DNA from: Winogradskya consettensis
GTDB taxonomy: Bacteria > Actinomycetota > Actinomycetes > Mycobacteriales > Micromonosporaceae
DNA: 64,000 bases
Reading direction: 5' to 3'
Assembly: GCF_018332715.1 (NCBI RefSeq)
Contig: NZ_BOQP01000002.1
Location: 1 to 64,000, forward strand
Part shown: positions 29,640-60,295 of the stretch, piece by piece
Layout: each line of letters opens with the position of its first letter
Numbering within the stretch: position 1 is the stretch's first letter
Notes under the pieces: model-generated
Told to the model about the DNA's origin: nothing
Database searches by the model: none
What the model saw: only the letters and a program-made list of their open reading frames with translations
Made by a program: the position numbers and the translations under genes

Positions 29640-30743
29640 GTGACCCGGAAACCGCTCGGCGTGCTGACTGCGATCGTCTTGCTCGCCGTCGCCGTCCTGA
29701 TCGGCTGGCGGGTGCTGCGCCCGGCGGAGGTCGTGGAGGCGGCGAAGGACCCCTACCCGGTGGCCCAGATCCTGCCCGCGGGCGTGACCGGCAAGACCAC
29801 GCTGGCCCCGCTGATCGTTGACGGACGCCTCCGGGTGTATGCGGGCGAGCGCTCGATCAAGGCGGACGCCCCCGTCGGAGCGCGGCTGATGATCACCCCG
29901 CGCTGGTCCTACCGGCGCTGGCCCGCGAAGCTCAGCGGGCTGGTCGCGATCGGCGCCACGGTCGTGAGCCGGTGGGACGACGGGTTGCTGGTCGCGCTCG
30001 ATGGGCGTACGGGGAAGGTGCTCTGGAAAGCGAACGGCCCGGCGGCGGCAGCCTTCACCGGCCGCACGGGTTCCGACGCGGTCTACGCACCCCCCGGCCT
30101 GTTCACCTCGGACAGCAGCGTCCTGACCCTCGACCGCAAACAACTGACGGCATGGTCCGTTTCGGACGGCACCCAGCGCTGGAGCACCCCTCTCCCGGCG
30201 GGCTGCAGCGCCGGCTTCACCACCGTCGGCGGCAGCTTCGCGTGCGGCGAGGGCGCCTGGGACATCGCCACCGGAAAACCGCTGCGCTCCTGGCCGGTCG
30301 GCCCGTCAACCCCGGTGGGCTGCGAGGTGGCCAGCTCCGCCTGCCCCGGCCTGCGCGACGCGGCCGGCCAGGAATGGGACGTCACCACGGCCGAGCCCAC
30401 CACCGGCGGACTGCACCTCACCACGGACGGGGGCGCGGTCACCGCATCGGGCACGGCCGTCTGGCGCTGGCCTTCCCGAGCCACGATCCTGGGGGTACGC
30501 GGGGAGCACGTCATCCTGCTCGCCGGCGTCGACCTCGTCGTGCTGGACGCCCGAACCGGCGCTCAACTGTCGCGCTTCCCGCTCTACGTCTCCGACGAGC
30601 GCGTCGAGCCGTGGAAGCCGTACCGCTGGCAACTGACCGGCACCTGGCTGGCCCTCGAACGCCTGCGCCCGGGTGCGGGAACCGACCCGTCGGAGCCGAA
30701 CCACTTCTACACGATCGACCCGGTCATCATCGCCGCGCTCTGA
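29640..30743 (+). CDS. Membrane-anchored PQQ-like beta-propeller protein
   Basis: 367 residues. One N-terminal transmembrane helix (residues ~7-23, GVLTAIVLLAVAVLIGW), then an extracellular domain with propeller-type blades: LVALDGRTGKVLWKA, LTAWSVSDGTQRWST, LVVLDARTGAQL. Two Cys pairs suggest disulfides. Function unknown. TAGGGT (29628-29633) lies 6 nt before GTG 29640, within 15 bp of the previous stop. Confidence 0.7.
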   Translation: MTRKPLGVLTAIVLLAVAVLIGWRVLRPAEVVEAAKDPYPVAQILPAGVTGKTTLAPLIVDGRLRVYAGERSIKADAPVGARLMITPRWSYRRWPAKLSGLVAIGATVVSRWDDGLLVALDGRTGKVLWKANGPAAAAFTGRTGSDAVYAPPGLFTSDSSVLTLDRKQLTAWSVSDGTQRWSTPLPAGCSAGFTTVGGSFACGEGAWDIATGKPLRSWPVGPSTPVGCEVASSACPGLRDAAGQEWDVTTAEPTTGGLHLTTDGGAVTASGTAVWRWPSRATILGVRGEHVILLAGVDLVVLDARTGAQLSRFPLYVSDERVEPWKPYRWQLTGTWLALERLRPGAGTDPSEPNHFYTIDPVIIAAL

Positions 30744-39442: not shown

Positions 39443-40780
39443 GTGGATCTCAGTACCGTGTCGGACGTGGCATCTACCGGCGCGAAGGGCGCGGCTCTCA
39501 TCGGCGTCGTGGCTGTCGTCGTGCTGGCCACCACCGGAGTGTGGAACCCCTGGCCGAACGTCTGGTCGTGGGTGACCCAGAGCGACCCGATCGCCGAGGG
39601 GGTCGCGAGCTGGCAGGCCCCGATCGGTGGCTCCCCGCACAGCATCACGATCACCGGCGGCTCGGTGATCGTCGAATACCGCACTTCCGTCGAGGCGTAC
39701 GGCCTGACCGCCGGCGTGAAGCTCTGGAAGTCCGACGCCGACTGGGCCGGGGTCGCCGGAAGCGGCGGTGACGCCGTGGTCGTGGTCGGCCGCCTGCTCA
39801 CCAAGGGTTACGAGGTGCTCGACCCCGCCACGGGAGCGGTCCGGCGCCGCGACACCGACGCGACGGCGGTCTGGACGTATTCGGACATGATCCTCGACAT
39901 GCGCTGCCTGAAGGCCGGGGCGTGCGAGCTGAGCGCGTGGGAGCCGCACGGCAGCAAACCGGAGTGGACGGTGTCGACGCCCGGTATCGGCTTCGTGCTC
40001 AACGCGTCGAACCCGGATCTGCCCGACACCCAGCCGATCAGCGCCGCGCAGATCGACTCCCACGCCGCCGGCCCGCAGGCGCTGCCCGACCTGATCGGGC
40101 TCCCCGGCGACGGCAGGATCCAGGTCATCGACACCGCGCGGGGACGGGTGTCGCAGACCCGCACGCCCGCCCGCGACCAGCGCGTCGCGGTCGTCGGCAG
40201 CCGGGTGCTCACGGTCACGGGGGAGGCGCGTGACGGCACTTGCTACTACGACGTGACCGCCCATGACCCACCGAACGGGCGGACGGTGTGGCAGCGCGAC
40301 GGGCTCAATCTGCGTACGGCGGACAACGGCTCGGACTGCAAGCAGGAACGGGACCCGGCCGGCGGCTCCGATGTGGTGCTCGGCGTCGACCCGTACGGGC
40401 GGCAGGAGCTGATCGCCGCGCACGACGGGCGCAACCTGTGGCGCGGTGAGGACGGGCAGAACGTGCTCGCCGTCAACAACTCGTACGCGCTCATCCGCAG
40501 CGCCGACAGCAAGACCCTGACCGCGCGGTCGTTCGGCCGGGGTTCGGTGGCGTGGCGGCGACCCGTCACCGCGGAATCGTCGGCGGGGATCACCACGTAT
40601 GCCGCGATCATCTCCGATCCCAAGGCCGGGCGGCTGGTGGCGGTGAGTCCGCGTAACGGGGACGTGCTGATCGAGGCGCGTACCGATGCCAAGGTCTTCG
40701 CGGCCGGTCCGGCAGGCCTGATCCTGGTCTCCGGCCGGGACATGGCATACCTCCCATACCGGGCAACACCCGCGAAGTGA
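39443..40780 (+). CDS. Membrane-anchored PQQ-like beta-propeller protein
   Basis: 445 residues. N-terminal transmembrane helix (residues ~15-31, GAALIGVVAVVVLATTG), then a propeller-type outer domain (SVEAYGLTAGVKLWKS, YEVLDPATGAVRRRD, LIAAHDGRNLWRGEDG, VAVSPRNGDVLIEA). Several Cys pairs. Function unknown. The start could instead be GTG 39467, which lies 7 nt after TACCGT (39454-39459). Same architecture as the gene at 29640. Confidence 0.68.
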   Translation: MDLSTVSDVASTGAKGAALIGVVAVVVLATTGVWNPWPNVWSWVTQSDPIAEGVASWQAPIGGSPHSITITGGSVIVEYRTSVEAYGLTAGVKLWKSDADWAGVAGSGGDAVVVVGRLLTKGYEVLDPATGAVRRRDTDATAVWTYSDMILDMRCLKAGACELSAWEPHGSKPEWTVSTPGIGFVLNASNPDLPDTQPISAAQIDSHAAGPQALPDLIGLPGDGRIQVIDTARGRVSQTRTPARDQRVAVVGSRVLTVTGEARDGTCYYDVTAHDPPNGRTVWQRDGLNLRTADNGSDCKQERDPAGGSDVVLGVDPYGRQELIAAHDGRNLWRGEDGQNVLAVNNSYALIRSADSKTLTARSFGRGSVAWRRPVTAESSAGITTYAAIISDPKAGRLVAVSPRNGDVLIEARTDAKVFAAGPAGLILVSGRDMAYLPYRATPAK

Positions 40781-53791: not shown

Positions 53792-54915
53792 TGCCGGGCA
53801 ATTCAAGCAACGCGAGCAAGCGGGCGACCAACAAGAAGGGCGCGGCGGCCGGCTCCGGCGGTAAGAACCGCACGGGCAGCCTCAAGCCCCGTGGCAAGAC
53901 GCTGCCCGCCGACGAACGGCCGTGGCACAAGGGCTACTCCGGCACGGAGAAGCTCCCCAACAAGACCGCCCGTAAGCAGGACAAAGAGCGCAAAGCGGCA
54001 GCCGCCGAGGGGCGCGTCCCCAAGATCGGCCTGCCCGGCTCGAAGGACACCACCTGGGGTCGTGGCGGCGGCCGCGGAACCTCCGGACGCCCCACCCAGC
54101 AGCGCGGCAACCGGGCCCAGACCCGGGGCGGCCCGCGCATCGCCCCCGGACGCCGCTCCAACCCCACCAAGGAAGGCCCCGAGCTCCTGCTCGGCCGCAA
54201 CCCGGTGGTCGAGGCGCTGCGCGCCAACATCCCGTCCACCGCGCTCTACATGGCGCAGGGCATCGACATCGACGACCGCATCACCGAGATCGTCCGCACG
54301 GCGGGCGACCGCGGCATCCCGATCCTCGAGATCAGCCGGCTCGAGCTCGACCGGATGACCGGTGGCGTCATGCACCAGGGCGTCGGCCTGCAGGTGCCCC
54401 CGTTCGCCTACGAGGACTTCAACGACCTGGTAGCAGCCGCCCTCGAACAGACGGCCCCGCTCCTGGTCGCCCTCGACGGCGTCACGGACCCCCGCAACCT
54501 CGGCGCGGTCATCCGCTCCGTCGCCGCCTTCGGAGCCCACGGCGTCTTCATCACCGAACGCCGCGCCGCAGGCATCACCCCCACCGCCTGGCGCACCAGC
54601 GCGGGCGCGGCAGCCCGCGTCCCGGTCTCCCAGGTCGTCAACCTGACCCGCGCCATCAAGGCAGCCCAGCAGGCCGGCTTCACCGCCATCGGCCTCGACG
54701 CCGACGGCGAAGTCGACCTCTACCAGCTCGAGGCAGCCTCCGGGCCCCTCCTCGTGGTGGTGGGCTCGGAAGGCCGGGGCATCTCCCGCCTCGTCGGCGA
54801 AACCTGCGACATGCTGGTCAGCATCCCCATGGCCTCCGAAGTGGAGTCCCTCAACGCCAGCGTCGCCGCCGCGGTCACCCTGGCCGAGGTAAGCCGCCGC
54901 CGCACGTACAAGTAA
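53791..54915 (+). CDS. rlmB: 23S rRNA 2'-O-methyltransferase RlmB (TrmH/SpoU family)
   Basis: 374 residues. A ~130-residue basic, disordered N-terminal extension (Lys/Arg/Gly-rich) precedes the SpoU substrate-binding domain ([15 protein letters not shown]) and the SPOUT knot: [16 protein letters not shown] (motif 1), [12 protein letters not shown] (motif 2), [12 protein letters not shown] (motif 3). The extension is typical of actinobacterial homologues. The ATG overlaps the cysS stop by one base, as in mycobacteria. Confidence 0.92.
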
Positions 54916-54929
54916 CCAGCCCGGTCTCC

Positions 54930-54982
54930 GTTCGGGAAATTGCCGTGTTCCGCTGACAGCGGAACACGGCAATTTCCCGAAC
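54930..54982. repeat. 53-bp perfect palindrome, IR1
   Basis: Two 25-bp arms pair perfectly around a GAC centre. Core GTTCCGCTGACAGCGGAAC; outer ends GTTCGGG and CCCGAAC. It starts 15 bp after the rlmB stop and may act as its terminator. It shares core and ends with IR2, 107 bp away centre to centre, upstream of the AbiE-like cassette. Confidence 0.95.
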
Positions 54983-55036
54983 ATCAAGATGCGCGTGCAT
55001 CGTTGTAGTGTAAAAACGCAGGTGGCGGCCATCCTT

Positions 55037-55089
55037 GTTCGGGTTATGCTTGTGTTCCGCTGACAGCGGAACATGCCAATTACCCGAAC
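55037..55089. repeat. 53-bp imperfect palindrome, IR2
   Basis: Same length, core (GTTCCGCTGACAGCGGAAC) and outer ends (GTTCGGG/CCCGAAC) as IR1, but only 19 of 25 arm positions pair; all mismatches fall between the two conserved boxes. It ends 9 bp before ATG 55099. The retained boxes with degenerate spacers look like protein-binding half-sites, probably the operator of the downstream cassette. Confidence 0.9.
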
Positions 55090-55098
55090 GGGCTGCTG

Positions 55099-56187
55099 AT
55101 GGAGATTGCTACCGAGCCTCCTGTGAGCGAGGTTGAAGTGGTGCGCCGCGCCGCTGCCAACCTGGCATCACGCCTGCCCCGGGGGTGGTCGATCCAGCCT
55201 GTGGAAGTTGCCGCGCTGACCGATGGCCGGATCGATGCCCTGTACCAGCTGACCGCGCCCGACGGTCGATCGGCCTCTCTTGTGGTTGAGGCTAAAACGA
55301 TGCTCGACGGGCGCGATGTCGGGGCCGTGGGCGACCAGCTGATGGCTTACGCTGAGCAAGTGGTCAATGGTCAAGGCATCCTAGCTGCTCGCTACCTGTC
55401 CCCCCAGGTGCGTGAACAGCTGGCCGAGCGCGGTCTTTCCTTCGTGGATACGACGGGCAACATTCGTCTCGAGGTCACATCTCCCGGGCTGTTCATCGCG
55501 GACCGGGGCGCTGACGGAGACCCCTGGCGTGGTCCCGGCCGGCCACGCGGCACCCTCAAGGGCGTCCCAGCAGCGAGAATCGTGCGCGCGATCGCCGACT
55601 TCGCTCGTGACTGGACCATTCGCGAACTGGTCACAACCTCCGGGGCATCCACGGGGGCGGCCTACCGGGTGATCGATTTCCTTGAGCGGGAAGGGCTCGC
55701 CGAGCGAGGGGCTCGTGGCGCGGTAACGGTGCCACGTTGGGACAAAGTGCTTCTGCGCTGGAGCGACGACTACAGCTTCGTCGAAAACGGCCGGGTAACT
55801 CGGTGGATAGCGCCGCGAGGCCTCGAAGACCTGGTGAAACGCCTTCCCCGCACCGAAGCCCTGGAATACGCGCTGACCGGGACCCTTGCGGCAGCACAAT
55901 GGGCTCCGCACGCGCCGGCCCGCTCGGCAATGATCTACACGGCCGACGCCGGGACAGCCGCCGCACAATGGGATCTGCGTCCAGCGGACGCCGGTGCGAA
56001 CGTCATGCTGGCCGAGCCCGCGATCGATGTCCCGTTCGTGCGCACCTCCACGAATGCCGATGGCGTCAGGATCGCGGCCCCCACCCAGGTGTTCGTGGAC
56101 CTCATGACCGGTCCGGGGCGAAGCCCGCAGGAGGCAGAAGAGCTCCTCCACTGGATGGTGGCCAATGAGCAGGCCTGGCGTTCCTGA
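55099..56187 (+). CDS. AbiEi-like antitoxin/regulator with nuclease-like N-terminus
   Basis: 362 residues. Residues ~15-125 resemble a PD-(D/E)XK core: a strand ending LVVEAK (ExK) after an Asp-containing strand (RIDALYQLTAPDG), then GILAARYLSPQVREQLAERG and SFVDTTGNIRLEV. A winged helix follows (~155-215, WTIRELVTTSGASTGAAYRV, FLEREGLAERG). The C-terminal part ends QVFVDLMTGPGRSPQEAEELL, the layout of AbiEi-type antitoxins. It overlaps the next gene by 23 bp. Likely the antitoxin and autorepressor of a type IV toxin-antitoxin pair; whether the nuclease site works is unknown. Confidence 0.72.
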   Translation: MEIATEPPVSEVEVVRRAAANLASRLPRGWSIQPVEVAALTDGRIDALYQLTAPDGRSASLVVEAKTMLDGRDVGAVGDQLMAYAEQVVNGQGILAARYLSPQVREQLAERGLSFVDTTGNIRLEVTSPGLFIADRGADGDPWRGPGRPRGTLKGVPAARIVRAIADFARDWTIRELVTTSGASTGAAYRVIDFLEREGLAERGARGAVTVPRWDKVLLRWSDDYSFVENGRVTRWIAPRGLEDLVKRLPRTEALEYALTGTLAAAQWAPHAPARSAMIYTADAGTAAAQWDLRPADAGANVMLAEPAIDVPFVRTSTNADGVRIAAPTQVFVDLMTGPGRSPQEAEELLHWMVANEQAWRS

Positions 56188-57022
56188 CCCCCAGCCGCCG
56201 CCCAGCGATCTCCTGGTCCGATCCCGAGCGGCGATGCTCGATGCGCTCGAAGCCCTGGCTGATCATCGGAACGCGGTCGTCGTAATCGGTGCGCAGGCTG
56301 TTTATCTGCGAACCGGTCGTGCCCAGGTCGCGCTTGCGGAGGCGACCAAGGACAGCGACCTCGCCATCGATCCCCGGGCGCTCGGGGAGAACCCCCATGT
56401 GGAAGCCGCGATGAAAGCCGCCGGCTTCCTGCCCGACCCTCTGCATGGTCAACCGGGGTCCTGGATCAACGCGATGGGGATACCTGTCGACCTGATGGTC
56501 CCGGAGCTACTTGCCGGCGCAGGCGGCCCGAATGCCCGGGGCGCGCGGATACCTCCGCACGACCGACGCGCAATGCGGCGGGCTCGGGGGTTGGAGGCAA
56601 CCGTCGTCGACAACACTGTCGAGAAGGTGCGGGCGCTGGATCCGGCCGACGAGCGTGCCTATGACGCGAGAGTTGCGGGACCGGCTGCGTTGCTCGTGGC
56701 GAAGACCTACAAGATCTCGGAGCGCGTCGAGACGCCGCGGCGGCTGAATGACAAGGACGCTCACGATAGGTATCGGATCCTCGTGGCGGTGGAGACGGCA
56801 TCGTTGGCTGAAGGCATTCGTCGTCTTCTCGAGGACCCGATCAGTGCGTCCGTGACCGATCAGGCTCTGCGGCAGATGGGCGAATTGGCCGGGGCGGGGC
56901 CGGAGGCGCCGATCCCGATGATGGCCGGGCGGGCCGAAGAAGGGTTGGGGGACCCGCAGACGGTGGCGCTTGCGACCGCCTTGTTGGCGCAGGATCTTCT
57001 CGGCGCTGTGGAACGGATCTGA
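56165..57022 (+). CDS. AbiEii/MNT-like nucleotidyltransferase (probable toxin)
   Basis: 285 residues. Minimal nucleotidyltransferase fold: VVVIGAQAVYLRTG (the G-x-x-A helix start, here Ala where many have G-G/S), then ATKDSDLAID with the D-x-D metal pair, and MGIPVDLMVPE with the third Asp. The C-terminal half is helical. Such enzymes form toxins in AbiE and MNT systems by modifying tRNA or proteins. The ATG lies inside the preceding gene (23-bp overlap), typical of a toxin following its antitoxin. Confidence 0.72.
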   Translation: MSRPGVPDPQPPPSDLLVRSRAAMLDALEALADHRNAVVVIGAQAVYLRTGRAQVALAEATKDSDLAIDPRALGENPHVEAAMKAAGFLPDPLHGQPGSWINAMGIPVDLMVPELLAGAGGPNARGARIPPHDRRAMRRARGLEATVVDNTVEKVRALDPADERAYDARVAGPAALLVAKTYKISERVETPRRLNDKDAHDRYRILVAVETASLAEGIRRLLEDPISASVTDQALRQMGELAGAGPEAPIPMMAGRAEEGLGDPQTVALATALLAQDLLGAVERI

Positions 57023-57157
57023 GAACGTCCCCGTTTGGGTGGGTCCTGGGCTGATGTTCCGGGGGATTCGGCGCTGACCAGCGGGCGTGGCTGGGGGTGG
57101 TCGGGGGCGGCAGGTAACGTGACGGGCCGGGTGGTCACGTTGGTGGAGGGGACCTGC

Positions 57158-60100
57158 ATGCTCGGTGTTGATCTGGGCACGTCCCATACGATCGCGATGC
57201 TTCGTCAGCCTGATGGGCGGGTGCGGCCGCTGCTGTTCGATGGGCAGCCGTTGCTGCCGTCGGCGGTGTACCTGGATACGACCGGGCGGCTGCATGTCGG
57301 GCGGGATGCTGTGCGGCTCGGGTATGCGGAGCCGGACCGGCTCGAGCCCAATCCGAAGCGGCACGTTGATGCGGCGAGTGTGTTGCTGGGCGGGGCCGAG
57401 GTGCCGGTGGCCGACATGCTGGCGGCGCTGCTGGGGGCGGTGGCGCGTGAGGCTGTCGCTACGGTGGGTTATCTTCCGCCTGCGGTGGTGACCTATCCTG
57501 CCGCGTGGGGTGCGCAGCGGCAGGAAGTGCTGATCGCGGCGATCGCCCGGGCCGGGTGGCCGCCCACCACCGGAGTCTTGCAGGCCGCGCCCGTTCAAGC
57601 GCGTGCGAACGCGACGCTGATCGATATCGCCTGGACGCCGCCGGTTGCTGCGGGGGGCTTGCCAGGCCGGCTGGTGGCTACGCAGTTGGTGGCGGAGCCG
57701 GTCGCGGCGGCGCGGTATTTCGCCGACGTGTTGCGTCAGCCGGTGCCGGTCGGGTCGGCCATCGGGGTCTTCGACTTCGGCGGTGGGACGTTGGACATCG
57801 CTGTGGTGCGCAACGTCAGGGCCGGTGCCGACGGGCGGGGGCGGTTCGAGGTCGCGGCGTCCGGTGGGCTGGACGACCTCGGTGGGCTGGATCTGGACGC
57901 GGCGCTGGTGGACCATCTGGGCACCACGCTGCGGGCCGAGGAGCCTGCGGCCTGGGCGGCGTTGTCCGAGCCGGTGACGCTCGCGCAGTGGCGGGCGCGG
58001 CGGCGGTTCTGGGACGACGTACGCGGGGCGAAGGAGATGTTGTCGCGCGCGAGCCAGGCGCCGGTGCCGGTGCCCGGCGTCGAGAACGCGCTGCAGGTGA
58101 CCCGCGAGGAGCTGGAGCTGGTCGCCGGGCGGCTGGTGCGGCGGGGCGTGGCCGAGGCCGGCGAGGTCATCCGGGCCGCGGGGCTGGCTCCGGCCGACCT
58201 TGCCGGGTTGTTCCTGGTCGGGGGCTCGTCGAGGGTGCCGCTGGTCGCGCGCCTGCTGCACAGCGAGTTGGGTATCGCCCCGACCGTCCTCGAACAGCCC
58301 GAGCTGCCCGTCGCCGAGGGCTCCATCCTGGCCGCCGACCTGACCGAGGAGAAGCCCGCCGAGGGAAAGCCCGCCGCGGAGAAGCCCGCAGAAGGAAAGC
58401 CCGCGGAGGAAACGCTCCCCGACAGGAAGCTCCCCGAGGGAACGGTCGCCGGGGAAACAGTCGCCGAGCAGACGGTCGCCGGGGAAACGGTTGCCGAGCA
58501 GACGGTTGCTGGGGAAACGGTCGCTGGGGAAACGGTTGCCGGGGGAGGGGCCGCTGAGGAAGGGCGGGGCCGGGGAGAAGCCGCACCGACCGCGACCGTG
58601 GAGGCCGTCGCAGCCGCTGTCGAGCCCGCTCCCGACACGCAGCCCAGGGTCGAGCCCAGAGTCGAGCCCAGGGTCGAGCCCATGCCATTGACCAGGGCCG
58701 AGCCCGCGCTGAGCGCCGGGGTGCACAGCAACGGGGTGCAGGCGGCCGGGATGGGGAGCGCGCCACCCGGGCTGAGCAACGGGGTTTCGGGCGAGTCCGG
58801 GGAGGGGCCCGCGCCGCAGTATGCCGATCCGGTCGACCCGTGGGCGACGGGGGAGGCGGCGCATCTGGCGGCCGGTGGGGCGGCCTATCCGACGTCGGGG
58901 GCGCCGGCTGAGCCGTGGCTGGCGTCGACGGATGGCGAGGAGCGGCGGCTTCCTGCGTACCGTAAGAAGTGGGTCTGGGTTGTTGCGGCCTTGACCGTTG
59001 TGGTGCTCGGTGTGGGCGGTGGGCTTGTTGTCCGGGCCTGGCCGGATTATCCGGCGCTGGACTATCAGCCGCTGAGCGAGCCCGTCAGGGTGAAGCCGGT
59101 CGCGCCGGTGACGTCGAGTTTTTCGGCGACCGCACTGCGGGACGGGACAGCGTTCTTCGCCGCCGATGACGGTGCGGGGCAGTTGGGGGTGGTGGCTGCC
59201 GATGCCGGGACGGGGAAGGTCGCGTGGAGCAACGTCGAGGCCGGCTCGGCGACCCGCTGGGAGTCGTTCTTCAGCGTGCCCGATGCGCTCGTCGCGGTGA
59301 CCGCTGTCGAGTCCGCGTCGAGTGACCGGCGGGTGGTTCTGCTGGACCCGAAGAGCGGGCACAAGATGTGGGAGCGGCGGATCAACTCCGACGACGAGCT
59401 GCTTTTCGCCGGGGACACCGCCGTGCTGGTCGACCGGAGCGAGAACAGGCTGGTGGGGCTCGGGGTCCGGAAGCAGGGTAAGGCCGGGTGGGAGCTCAAG
59501 AGCCCGACCACGGAGTACGGCCAGAGCACCACGACAGTCGTCACCGTGACCGACGTCGAGGACCTGGGCGGTGTCGCGCGCACCGGTGGGAAGGACCCGC
59601 GGATCGTGCAGGTCGGCGCCGACCGCTCCGTGCGGGTGATCGACGCCGACAAGGGCAAGATCGTGGCGGGACCGCAGCCGAACGTCGCGCAGCCGGATGA
59701 GGACATCGTCGCGTACAACGGGCGGCTGATCGTGTCCGAGTCGAGTGACGCGCACCGGATGCTGGCGTACGACCTGGACAAGCTCGGTGAGCCGCGGGTG
59801 CTCTACACGCCGCCGGGCACGAACGACCGGGTGCAGACGCTGAGCCCGTGCGGGGACGACCGGATCTGCGGGGTGCAGAAGACGTCGTACGACAGCGAGA
59901 CCGCGCAGGTCGTCGCGATCGACGCGGCCAAGGGTGGGGAGGTGTGGCATCGCAGCGCGCCGCACGTCGCCACGCTGCTGCCGGTCGGTGACGCCGTGGT
60001 CGCGACCCAGGAGACCTCGCCGGGGCAGGTGATGCTGCTCGACGCCGCCGGGAAGGTCACGTGGACCAAGCCGGAGATCGTGGTGGGGCGCATCGACGCC

Positions 60101-60295
60101 GCGAACATGCTGGTGTTCTCGAAGGCGCTGAGCGCGTCGCCCGATGATCCTTCGATGTCGGGCGAGCACCTCGGGGACAACCCTGTGCCGCTGGGTTCGC
60201 TGAAGGGCGTACGGTCCCAGACCTGCTCCTGGGACAGCGAGCATCTCGCCTGCGTGGCCGACGAGGATTTTGTCCTGCAGACTTTCACCGAATAG
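57158..60295 (+). CDS. Hsp70-like ATPase fused through a membrane helix to a beta-propeller
   Basis: 1045 residues. Hsp70/actin-like ATPase ~1-370 with phosphate-1 GVDLGTSHT (3-11), phosphate-2 FDFGGGTLD (~205-213) and adenosine LVGGSSRVPLV (~352-362). No recognisable substrate-binding domain; instead a repetitive Glu/Pro/Thr linker (~385-520), a Pro/Gly stretch, one transmembrane helix (~603-625) and a C-terminal PQQ-like propeller (~640-1045: VVLLDPKSGHKMWERR, VVAIDAAKGGEVWHRS). The propeller would be outside, the ATPase inside. GGAGGGG precedes ATG 57158. Function unknown. Confidence 0.82.
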   Translation: MLGVDLGTSHTIAMLRQPDGRVRPLLFDGQPLLPSAVYLDTTGRLHVGRDAVRLGYAEPDRLEPNPKRHVDAASVLLGGAEVPVADMLAALLGAVAREAVATVGYLPPAVVTYPAAWGAQRQEVLIAAIARAGWPPTTGVLQAAPVQARANATLIDIAWTPPVAAGGLPGRLVATQLVAEPVAAARYFADVLRQPVPVGSAIGVFDFGGGTLDIAVVRNVRAGADGRGRFEVAASGGLDDLGGLDLDAALVDHLGTTLRAEEPAAWAALSEPVTLAQWRARRRFWDDVRGAKEMLSRASQAPVPVPGVENALQVTREELELVAGRLVRRGVAEAGEVIRAAGLAPADLAGLFLVGGSSRVPLVARLLHSELGIAPTVLEQPELPVAEGSILAADLTEEKPAEGKPAAEKPAEGKPAEETLPDRKLPEGTVAGETVAEQTVAGETVAEQTVAGETVAGETVAGGGAAEEGRGRGEAAPTATVEAVAAAVEPAPDTQPRVEPRVEPRVEPMPLTRAEPALSAGVHSNGVQAAGMGSAPPGLSNGVSGESGEGPAPQYADPVDPWATGEAAHLAAGGAAYPTSGAPAEPWLASTDGEERRLPAYRKKWVWVVAALTVVVLGVGGGLVVRAWPDYPALDYQPLSEPVRVKPVAPVTSSFSATALRDGTAFFAADDGAGQLGVVAADAGTGKVAWSNVEAGSATRWESFFSVPDALVAVTAVESASSDRRVVLLDPKSGHKMWERRINSDDELLFAGDTAVLVDRSENRLVGLGVRKQGKAGWELKSPTTEYGQSTTTVVTVTDVEDLGGVARTGGKDPRIVQVGADRSVRVIDADKGKIVAGPQPNVAQPDEDIVAYNGRLIVSESSDAHRMLAYDLDKLGEPRVLYTPPGTNDRVQTLSPCGDDRICGVQKTSYDSETAQVVAIDAAKGGEVWHRSAPHVATLLPVGDAVVATQETSPGQVMLLDAAGKVTWTKPEIVVGRIDAANMLVFSKALSASPDDPSMSGEHLGDNPVPLGSLKGVRSQTCSWDSEHLACVADEDFVLQTFTE
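58436..58540 (+). repeat. 15-bp tandem repeats coding the linker of the Hsp70-like protein
   Basis: Seven in-frame 15-bp units alternating GGGGAAACGGTTGCC and GAGCAGACGGTCGCC types, encoding GETVA/EQTVA. Adjacent stretches repeat EGKPA/EKPA (58350-58410) and EPRV (58645-58680). Length polymorphism between strains is likely. Confidence 0.85.

Follow-up and report, generated by a model that had tools for sequence, protein, structure and literature searches.

An Hsp70-type ATPase domain joined through a predicted membrane helix to a PQQ-type propeller in Winogradskya consettensis

Anatomy of the fused gene

We analysed a stretch of 64,000 nucleotides from the soil bacterium Winogradskya consettensis (Micromonosporaceae; contig NZ_BOQP01000002.1, positions 1 to 64,000), here called the window. 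On its forward strand an open reading frame (ORF) at 57158-60295 starts with ATG, is preceded by GGAGG and codes for 1045 amino acids. Upstream are cysS and rlmB, downstream is a convergent ugpC (names by NCBIfam). An earlier reading of the letters alone (the sequence-only reading) had proposed that the protein joins an Hsp70-type ATPase, lacking the substrate-binding domain, to a membrane helix at about residues 603-625 and an extracellular propeller, and that it acts in transmembrane signalling or cell-envelope assembly and not as a chaperone. Pfam HSP70 (PF00012) matched residues 198-394 (E 1.3e-19; 70.3 bits, above the curated cut-off of 20.6) and PQQ_2 (PF13360) residues 659-873 (E 8.7e-10; 39.1 bits, above the cut-off of 27.6). 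Thirty-eight proteins were aligned, i.e. the window protein and those of 37 of the 41 loci from a homologue search. Four loci were excluded: L072 and L073 have the ATPase and the helix but lack a propeller match, and L074 and L075 gave short matches of low complexity. Because of this exclusion both domains are kept in all 38 aligned proteins partly by choice. On this alignment a full-length AlphaFold2 model was built. Its mean predicted local distance difference test score (pLDDT) was 77; the ATPase (1-397) was confident except for residues 140-170, residues 398-612 were disordered (pLDDT <50), a helix covered 600-627 and the propeller block was mostly above 90. The following features were assigned.

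57158..60295, + strand: whole gene, Hsp70 ATPase, tether, membrane helix and propeller, 1045 amino acids (ORF, Pfam, model)
57158..58348, + strand: Hsp70-type ATPase (nucleotide-binding) domain, residues 1-397 (PF00012, model, similarity to DnaK)
57170..57172, + strand: codon of D5 (DnaK D8), phosphate-1 motif; D in 38/38
57356..57358, + strand: codon of K67 (DnaK K70), catalytic lysine; K in 38/38
57695..57697, + strand: codon of E180 (DnaK E171); E in 38/38
57770..57796, + strand: phosphate-2 motif FDFGGGTLD, residues 205-213 (DnaK D194, T199, D201); three catalytic positions in 38/38
58349..58954, + strand: predicted disordered low-complexity tether, residues 398-599, where the linker and substrate-binding domain of Hsp70 are missing
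58955..59038, + strand: predicted membrane helix, model residues 600-627 (low confidence), hydropathy peak 607-625, basic residues on the N side
59057..60292, + strand: predicted extracytoplasmic PQQ/BamB-type propeller, residues 634-1045, probably nine blades (model, 36 strands, fold matches, PF13360)
59849..59869, + strand: invariant cysteine pair C898/C904 (alignment; kept in propellers without ATPase)
60224..60253, + strand: invariant cysteine pair C1023/C1032 on two neighbouring strands (alignment, model strands; kept in propellers without ATPase)

The proposed union of these parts in one protein is confirmed. No canonical substrate-binding domain was modelled after the ATPase, and a hydropathy peak was found at residues 607-625 where the helix had been expected. 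A crude Nei-Gojobori estimate of the ratio of non-synonymous to synonymous substitution rates (dN/dS) against the nearest relative, L035, gave values of 0.07 (ATPase), 0.64 (tether) and 0.17 (propeller). A hydrophobic helix followed the ATPase in all 38 aligned proteins. Because of this conservation and the dN/dS values the architecture is more than a product of chance. The anatomy as described is well supported.

The ATPase resembles the DnaK/Hsp70 domain in fold, catalytic residues and nucleotide motifs. The model superposes on DnaK ATPase domains with a Z score of 35.8 and a root-mean-square deviation (rmsd) of 2.5-2.6 Å over 340-346 residues; across the domain, sequence identity with E. 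coli DnaK is 27%. The equivalents of DnaK D8, K70, E171, D194, T199 and D201 were kept in every aligned protein; the position of DnaK T12 was a serine in all 38. The differences from DnaK concern chaperone properties. Positions N170 and T173, which we take to be J-domain contact residues of DnaK, were replaced in 38/38, and R167 was retained in 12/38. Opposite the DnaK linker residues V389-L392 the alignment has gaps, both in the window protein and in 32-38 of the 38. Eight further residues are absent in the alignment at a DnaK segment which presumably is the IIB hairpin. The hydrophobic linker and the substrate-binding domain of Hsp70 chaperones are not present; instead, disorder at 398-612 is followed by the membrane helix. 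These data support the prediction of a working ATPase site in a protein that is not a chaperone, and on the latter point the sequence-only reading holds. A canonical DnaK is encoded elsewhere in the W. consettensis genome (contig C69, 720.9 bits). The model PRK11678, which we assume to be YegD, matched the window protein weakly (E 0.0056).

Because the pLDDT of the helix block was low (47-63), the membrane helix was assigned from hydropathy and conservation. Within 15 residues of the helix the 38 proteins carry 2-6 basic residues on the N side versus 0-3 on the C side, and only L066 has an excess on the C side. Exactly four cysteines follow the helix in all 38, as two invariant pairs, whereas the 18,438 residues before the helix contain 15 cysteines in total. 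The four cysteines were also kept in all 18 propellers without ATPase. This pattern of cysteines and basic residues fits an N-inside protein with an oxidised outside domain. Together with the helix and the model it supports the proposed topology, ATPase inside and propeller outside. The tether between ATPase and membrane varies from 40 to 260 residues among the 38 proteins. Separately, the motif P-V-D-P-W-A was noticed before the membrane helix (window 58820-58846) in 10/38 aligned proteins, namely those of the Actinoplanes group, and in at least one short ATPase-less protein (L079).

The propeller was modelled and searched alone because VIA-align with the whole model lists only ATPase chains. 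The separate model (pLDDT 94.1, predicted template modelling score 0.89) has 36 strands of at least three residues, which points to probably nine four-stranded blades. In repeat type and sequence the domain is similar to BamB and other PQQ_2 propellers. The best matches of its sequence profile in the PDB were BamB (E 2e-17), and BamB was first by E-value in Foldseek as well, but with an rmsd of about 8-10 Å and a template modelling score of about 0.5. VIA-align, in contrast, placed a Tetrahymena centriole protein, eIF2A and designed Cake proteins at the top (Z 19.5-22.3) and BamB at 17.2 or less. Among these hits eIF2A (8dys, Z 20.5) and Cake9 (Z 19.9) have, we assume, nine blades, while the BamB propeller has eight. 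The different rankings are taken as a matter of blade number; they give no function. The BamB equivalog cut-off of NCBIfam was not reached (24.7 versus 423 bits), and the window protein also differs from BamB in that a membrane helix within the chain takes the place of the lipoprotein signal. The window contains two additional genes for PQQ-type propellers (40250-40684 and 29952-30200), each with a hydrophobic segment near the N-terminus. In the genome as a whole 14 PQQ_2 matches were seen, some of which share one ORF.

Distribution and apparent loss of the ATPase

The genomic position is conserved. Of the 37 relatives, 31 have rlmB upstream in the same orientation, 20 of them within 450 bases, and in 22 a convergent ugpC follows within 1.1 kb. 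Three Stackebrandtia loci (Glycomycetaceae) have rlmB yet no such convergent ugpC. In a sparse sample of the phylum, own genome included, the ATPase was matched at E 1e-25 in 3/296 genomes and the propeller at E 1e-8 in 2/296.

Of 35 genomes of the same genus (Actinoplanes group; that of the window excluded), 17 have the fused gene, 17 have a short gene for helix and propeller, and one (G001) has neither among the matches listed. All 17 short genes have the convergent ugpC. Since five short-form genomes consist of one contig each, assembly errors are a less likely cause. Splitting-off or relocation of the ATPase in short-form genomes was considered and rejected: the ATPase matches listed there are at most 56% identical, compared to at least 61% in fused genes; the ATPase looks lost rather than moved. 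In a quick tree of 67 propellers, calculated without bootstrap and after dropping a second propeller copy (L097), the fused/unfused label requires five changes, and the starred branches force at least three. According to the note of the tool, a single gain together with two losses could account for the three forced changes. Each of the five outgroup rows (three Glycomycetaceae, two Micromonosporaceae) has the fused form. We read the changes as repeated loss of the ATPase with retention of the propeller. In this case the propeller would be the core and the ATPase an added module.

A family of ATPase-membrane proteins and its neighbours

Related ATPases without a substrate-binding domain carry other parts: a WD40 propeller with helix (L113), WD40 without helix (L112), Peripla_BP_6 (L115) or a weak ANF_receptor match (L114). 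In others the ATPase is joined to small domains or to several helices, or the protein ends with the helix. A tree of 42 rows, for which two DnaK rows served as outgroup, requires 12 changes of the ten architecture labels compared to 23.7 in shuffles. With a tail-anchored member as query, matches at E 1e-45 were obtained in 60/150 genomes of the order. The best 30 loci yielded 28 complete best ORFs after exclusion of L170 for a stop codon and of L185 for a contig end; the count leaves aside two partial tandem copies. Each of the 28 encodes a single helix behind the ATPase. In 14 the protein stops no more than 26 residues past the helix, and in the other 14 it continues for 152-224 residues. Nineteen further loci, weaker matches included, gave best ORFs with at least one helix after the ATPase in 19/19 and exactly one in 16/19. 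Together, 47/47 complete best ORFs have at least one such helix and 44/47 exactly one. That the weaker matches are ordinary DnaK was rejected, as all 19 have the helix and none has the DnaK linker (the match in G045 was outside this check). In L208, L215 and L217 the ATPase is accompanied by seven or eight helices; a second ORF of L214 lacks a helix. W. consettensis itself possesses one such paralogue (contig C6, 571 amino acids). By sequence, the window protein is assigned to a larger and so far sparsely described family with a predicted core of ATPase and membrane helix and with different outside domains, as in receptor kinases. Rv0312 and Rv2264c may be mycobacterial relatives. As an aside, an Hsp70 ATPase with seven or eight predicted helices is encoded in Virgisporangium (L057:1752-3923) 4 kb upstream of a propeller-fused gene.

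The following neighbours belong to paralogues, not to the window gene. At L119:3523-8869 and L121:3461-8841 a paralogous ATPase-membrane gene is located after pspA and pspM (Rv2743c family) and before recA. A 69-residue ORF without NCBIfam match, presumably DUF3046, lies in between. The paralogue sits about where PspN is placed in M. tuberculosis according to PMC11237479, and a term search of the main text returned neither Hsp70 nor DnaK. Dynamin_N GTPases are encoded near L080, L118, L120, L122 and L126. In five genomes 10 of 12 dynamin genes have a family gene at a distance of at most 10 kb, compared to an expected 0.1. This is not a blind test since the genomes were chosen because such a neighbour had already been seen there. 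In W. consettensis a dynamin pair on contig C8 is not beside an ATPase-membrane gene, and a third, weak match is near dnaK on C69. A type VII secretion locus (EccCa/EccCb, WXG100) at L124:1041-8531 contains an ATPase-membrane protein with an N-terminal Hsp70 ATPase; its part after the helix matches T7SS_Rv3446c (TIGR03931, E 2.5e-24). In the window protein the propeller takes this place and TIGR03931 is not matched at E 0.1. An EccD gene is present at L120. According to PMC4791881, rv3446c is one of the genes that were added to the ancestral ESX-4. For membrane-linked GTPase systems of actinobacteria and firmicutes, PMC7159879 mentions Hsp70 domains that lack the peptide-binding domain, and this remark is the closest earlier mention found.

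A proposed membrane switch and its alternatives

Hsp70 ATPases are known as the motors of chaperones. What might one do on a membrane tether? We give an even chance to a receptor-like, single-pass, N-inside protein in which the Hsp70 ATPase serves as a cytoplasmic switch or docking module. The propeller, as the core of the protein, would bind a wall component or a secreted partner outside. Inside, the Hsp70 domain would differ in shape with ATP and ADP and thereby bind or release a cytoplasmic partner at the membrane; on its long flexible tether it may be a switch or a docking module rather than a chaperone. A rigid inside-outside transmission is unlikely because the tether is disordered and 40-260 residues long; for the same reason coupling may proceed via clustering or proximity rather than via a rigid lever. 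A precedent for the layout is AfsK, described in excerpts of PMC1262709 as a membrane-associated kinase with C-terminal PQQ repeats. The window protein is predicted to have the same order of cytoplasmic catalytic domain, one helix and outside domain, but an Hsp70 ATPase replaces the kinase and no kinase was matched at E 0.1. Signalling is inferred from the architecture, which fits a role either in signalling or in the envelope.

Several points weigh against a receptor-like switch. The tether, being disordered in the model, offers no visible signal path. The conserved neighbours cysS, rlmB and ugpC are ordinary and show no signalling partner. Finally, 17 of the 35 genomes of the genus do without the ATPase, which is dispensable there, and the data would also be accounted for by a propeller that works on its own.

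Retention of the propeller where the ATPase was lost would also suit an envelope scaffold. In this view the propeller would be a BamB-like docking platform on which wall or secreted proteins are assembled or maintained, and the sole task of the ATPase would be to recruit cytoplasmic partners or to time their action (dynamin-like, PspA-like or secretion components). BamB as best sequence match and first Foldseek hit, and the Dynamin_N GTPase, PspA-PspM or type VII secretion genes which adjoin some paralogues, agree with this. However, BamB serves an outer membrane, its equivalog cut-off was missed, no assembly partner was recognised next to the gene and in the own genome the dynamin pair does not adjoin an ATPase-membrane gene. 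We consider a scaffold rather unlikely. Possibly the protein is a tethered helper of the ordinary chaperone system. Its ATPase would then interact with nucleotide exchange factors or J-proteins, or keep DnaK-type machinery in place at the membrane. The intact ATPase fold would allow this, and Hsp70s with the ATPase domain alone have a precedent in HSPA13/STCH: excerpts of PMC9691929 state that HSPA13, an Hsp70 said to be without substrate-binding domain, modulates protein translocation. The literature matches listed give no description of such Hsp70s being joined via a membrane helix to a propeller. Yet the J-domain face is altered at N170 and T173 in all aligned proteins, eight residues are missing at the putative IIB hairpin, and neither dnaJ nor grpE was recognised by eye among the ORFs at 50-64 kb of the window, where no dedicated search was carried out. 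Such a helper appears improbable.

The receptor-like switch can be extended to the order. Tentatively, and with considerable doubt, we suggest a class of transmembrane receptors in which an Hsp70 ATPase output is freed from chaperoning, outside sensors are exchangeable (a nine-bladed propeller, WD40, periplasmic-binding-protein and other domains), and membrane-remodelling and secretion machines (dynamin-like GTPases, PspA, ESX-4) are the targets. Receptor layouts, PQQ propellers and single Hsp70 ATPase domains have all been described before. Their combination was named in none of the open-access literature matches listed, which do not cover most subscription papers. That the ATPase was kept, the peptide-binding half dropped, a helix added and the outside part changed suggests that the Hsp70 fold came to be used as a membrane switch, in the same way as kinases. 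This makes testable what an Hsp70 ATPase does without substrates and provides a handle on neighbours of unknown role such as the Rv3446c family, PspM and bacterial dynamins.

The sequence-only reading had further pointed to an adjoining AbiE-like cassette. The adjacency is real: the cassette at 55099-57022 is just upstream and its first gene matches AbiEi_2 (E 4.5e-5). A meaningful link did not stand. In a set of 68 records longer than 9 kb, detection of the cassette was confined to the window and L077, both of which come from the W. consettensis genome. Because the cassette is found in no other genome's records while the gene stays, the proximity looks incidental. A defence role was rejected, as the three proteins matched no PADLOC family at E 0.1. 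That the gene is part of a defence island with the cassette is largely refuted and has next to no probability. In L035, which is without AbiE-like genes, 235 bases separate the end of rlmB from the gene. Inspection by eye showed long inverted repeats after rlmB, with two copies before the cassette and one in L035 (window 54910-55110 and 57015-57035; L035:7760-8010). The final bases of the second cassette gene are still present in L035, which would fit a loss of the cassette from this locus.

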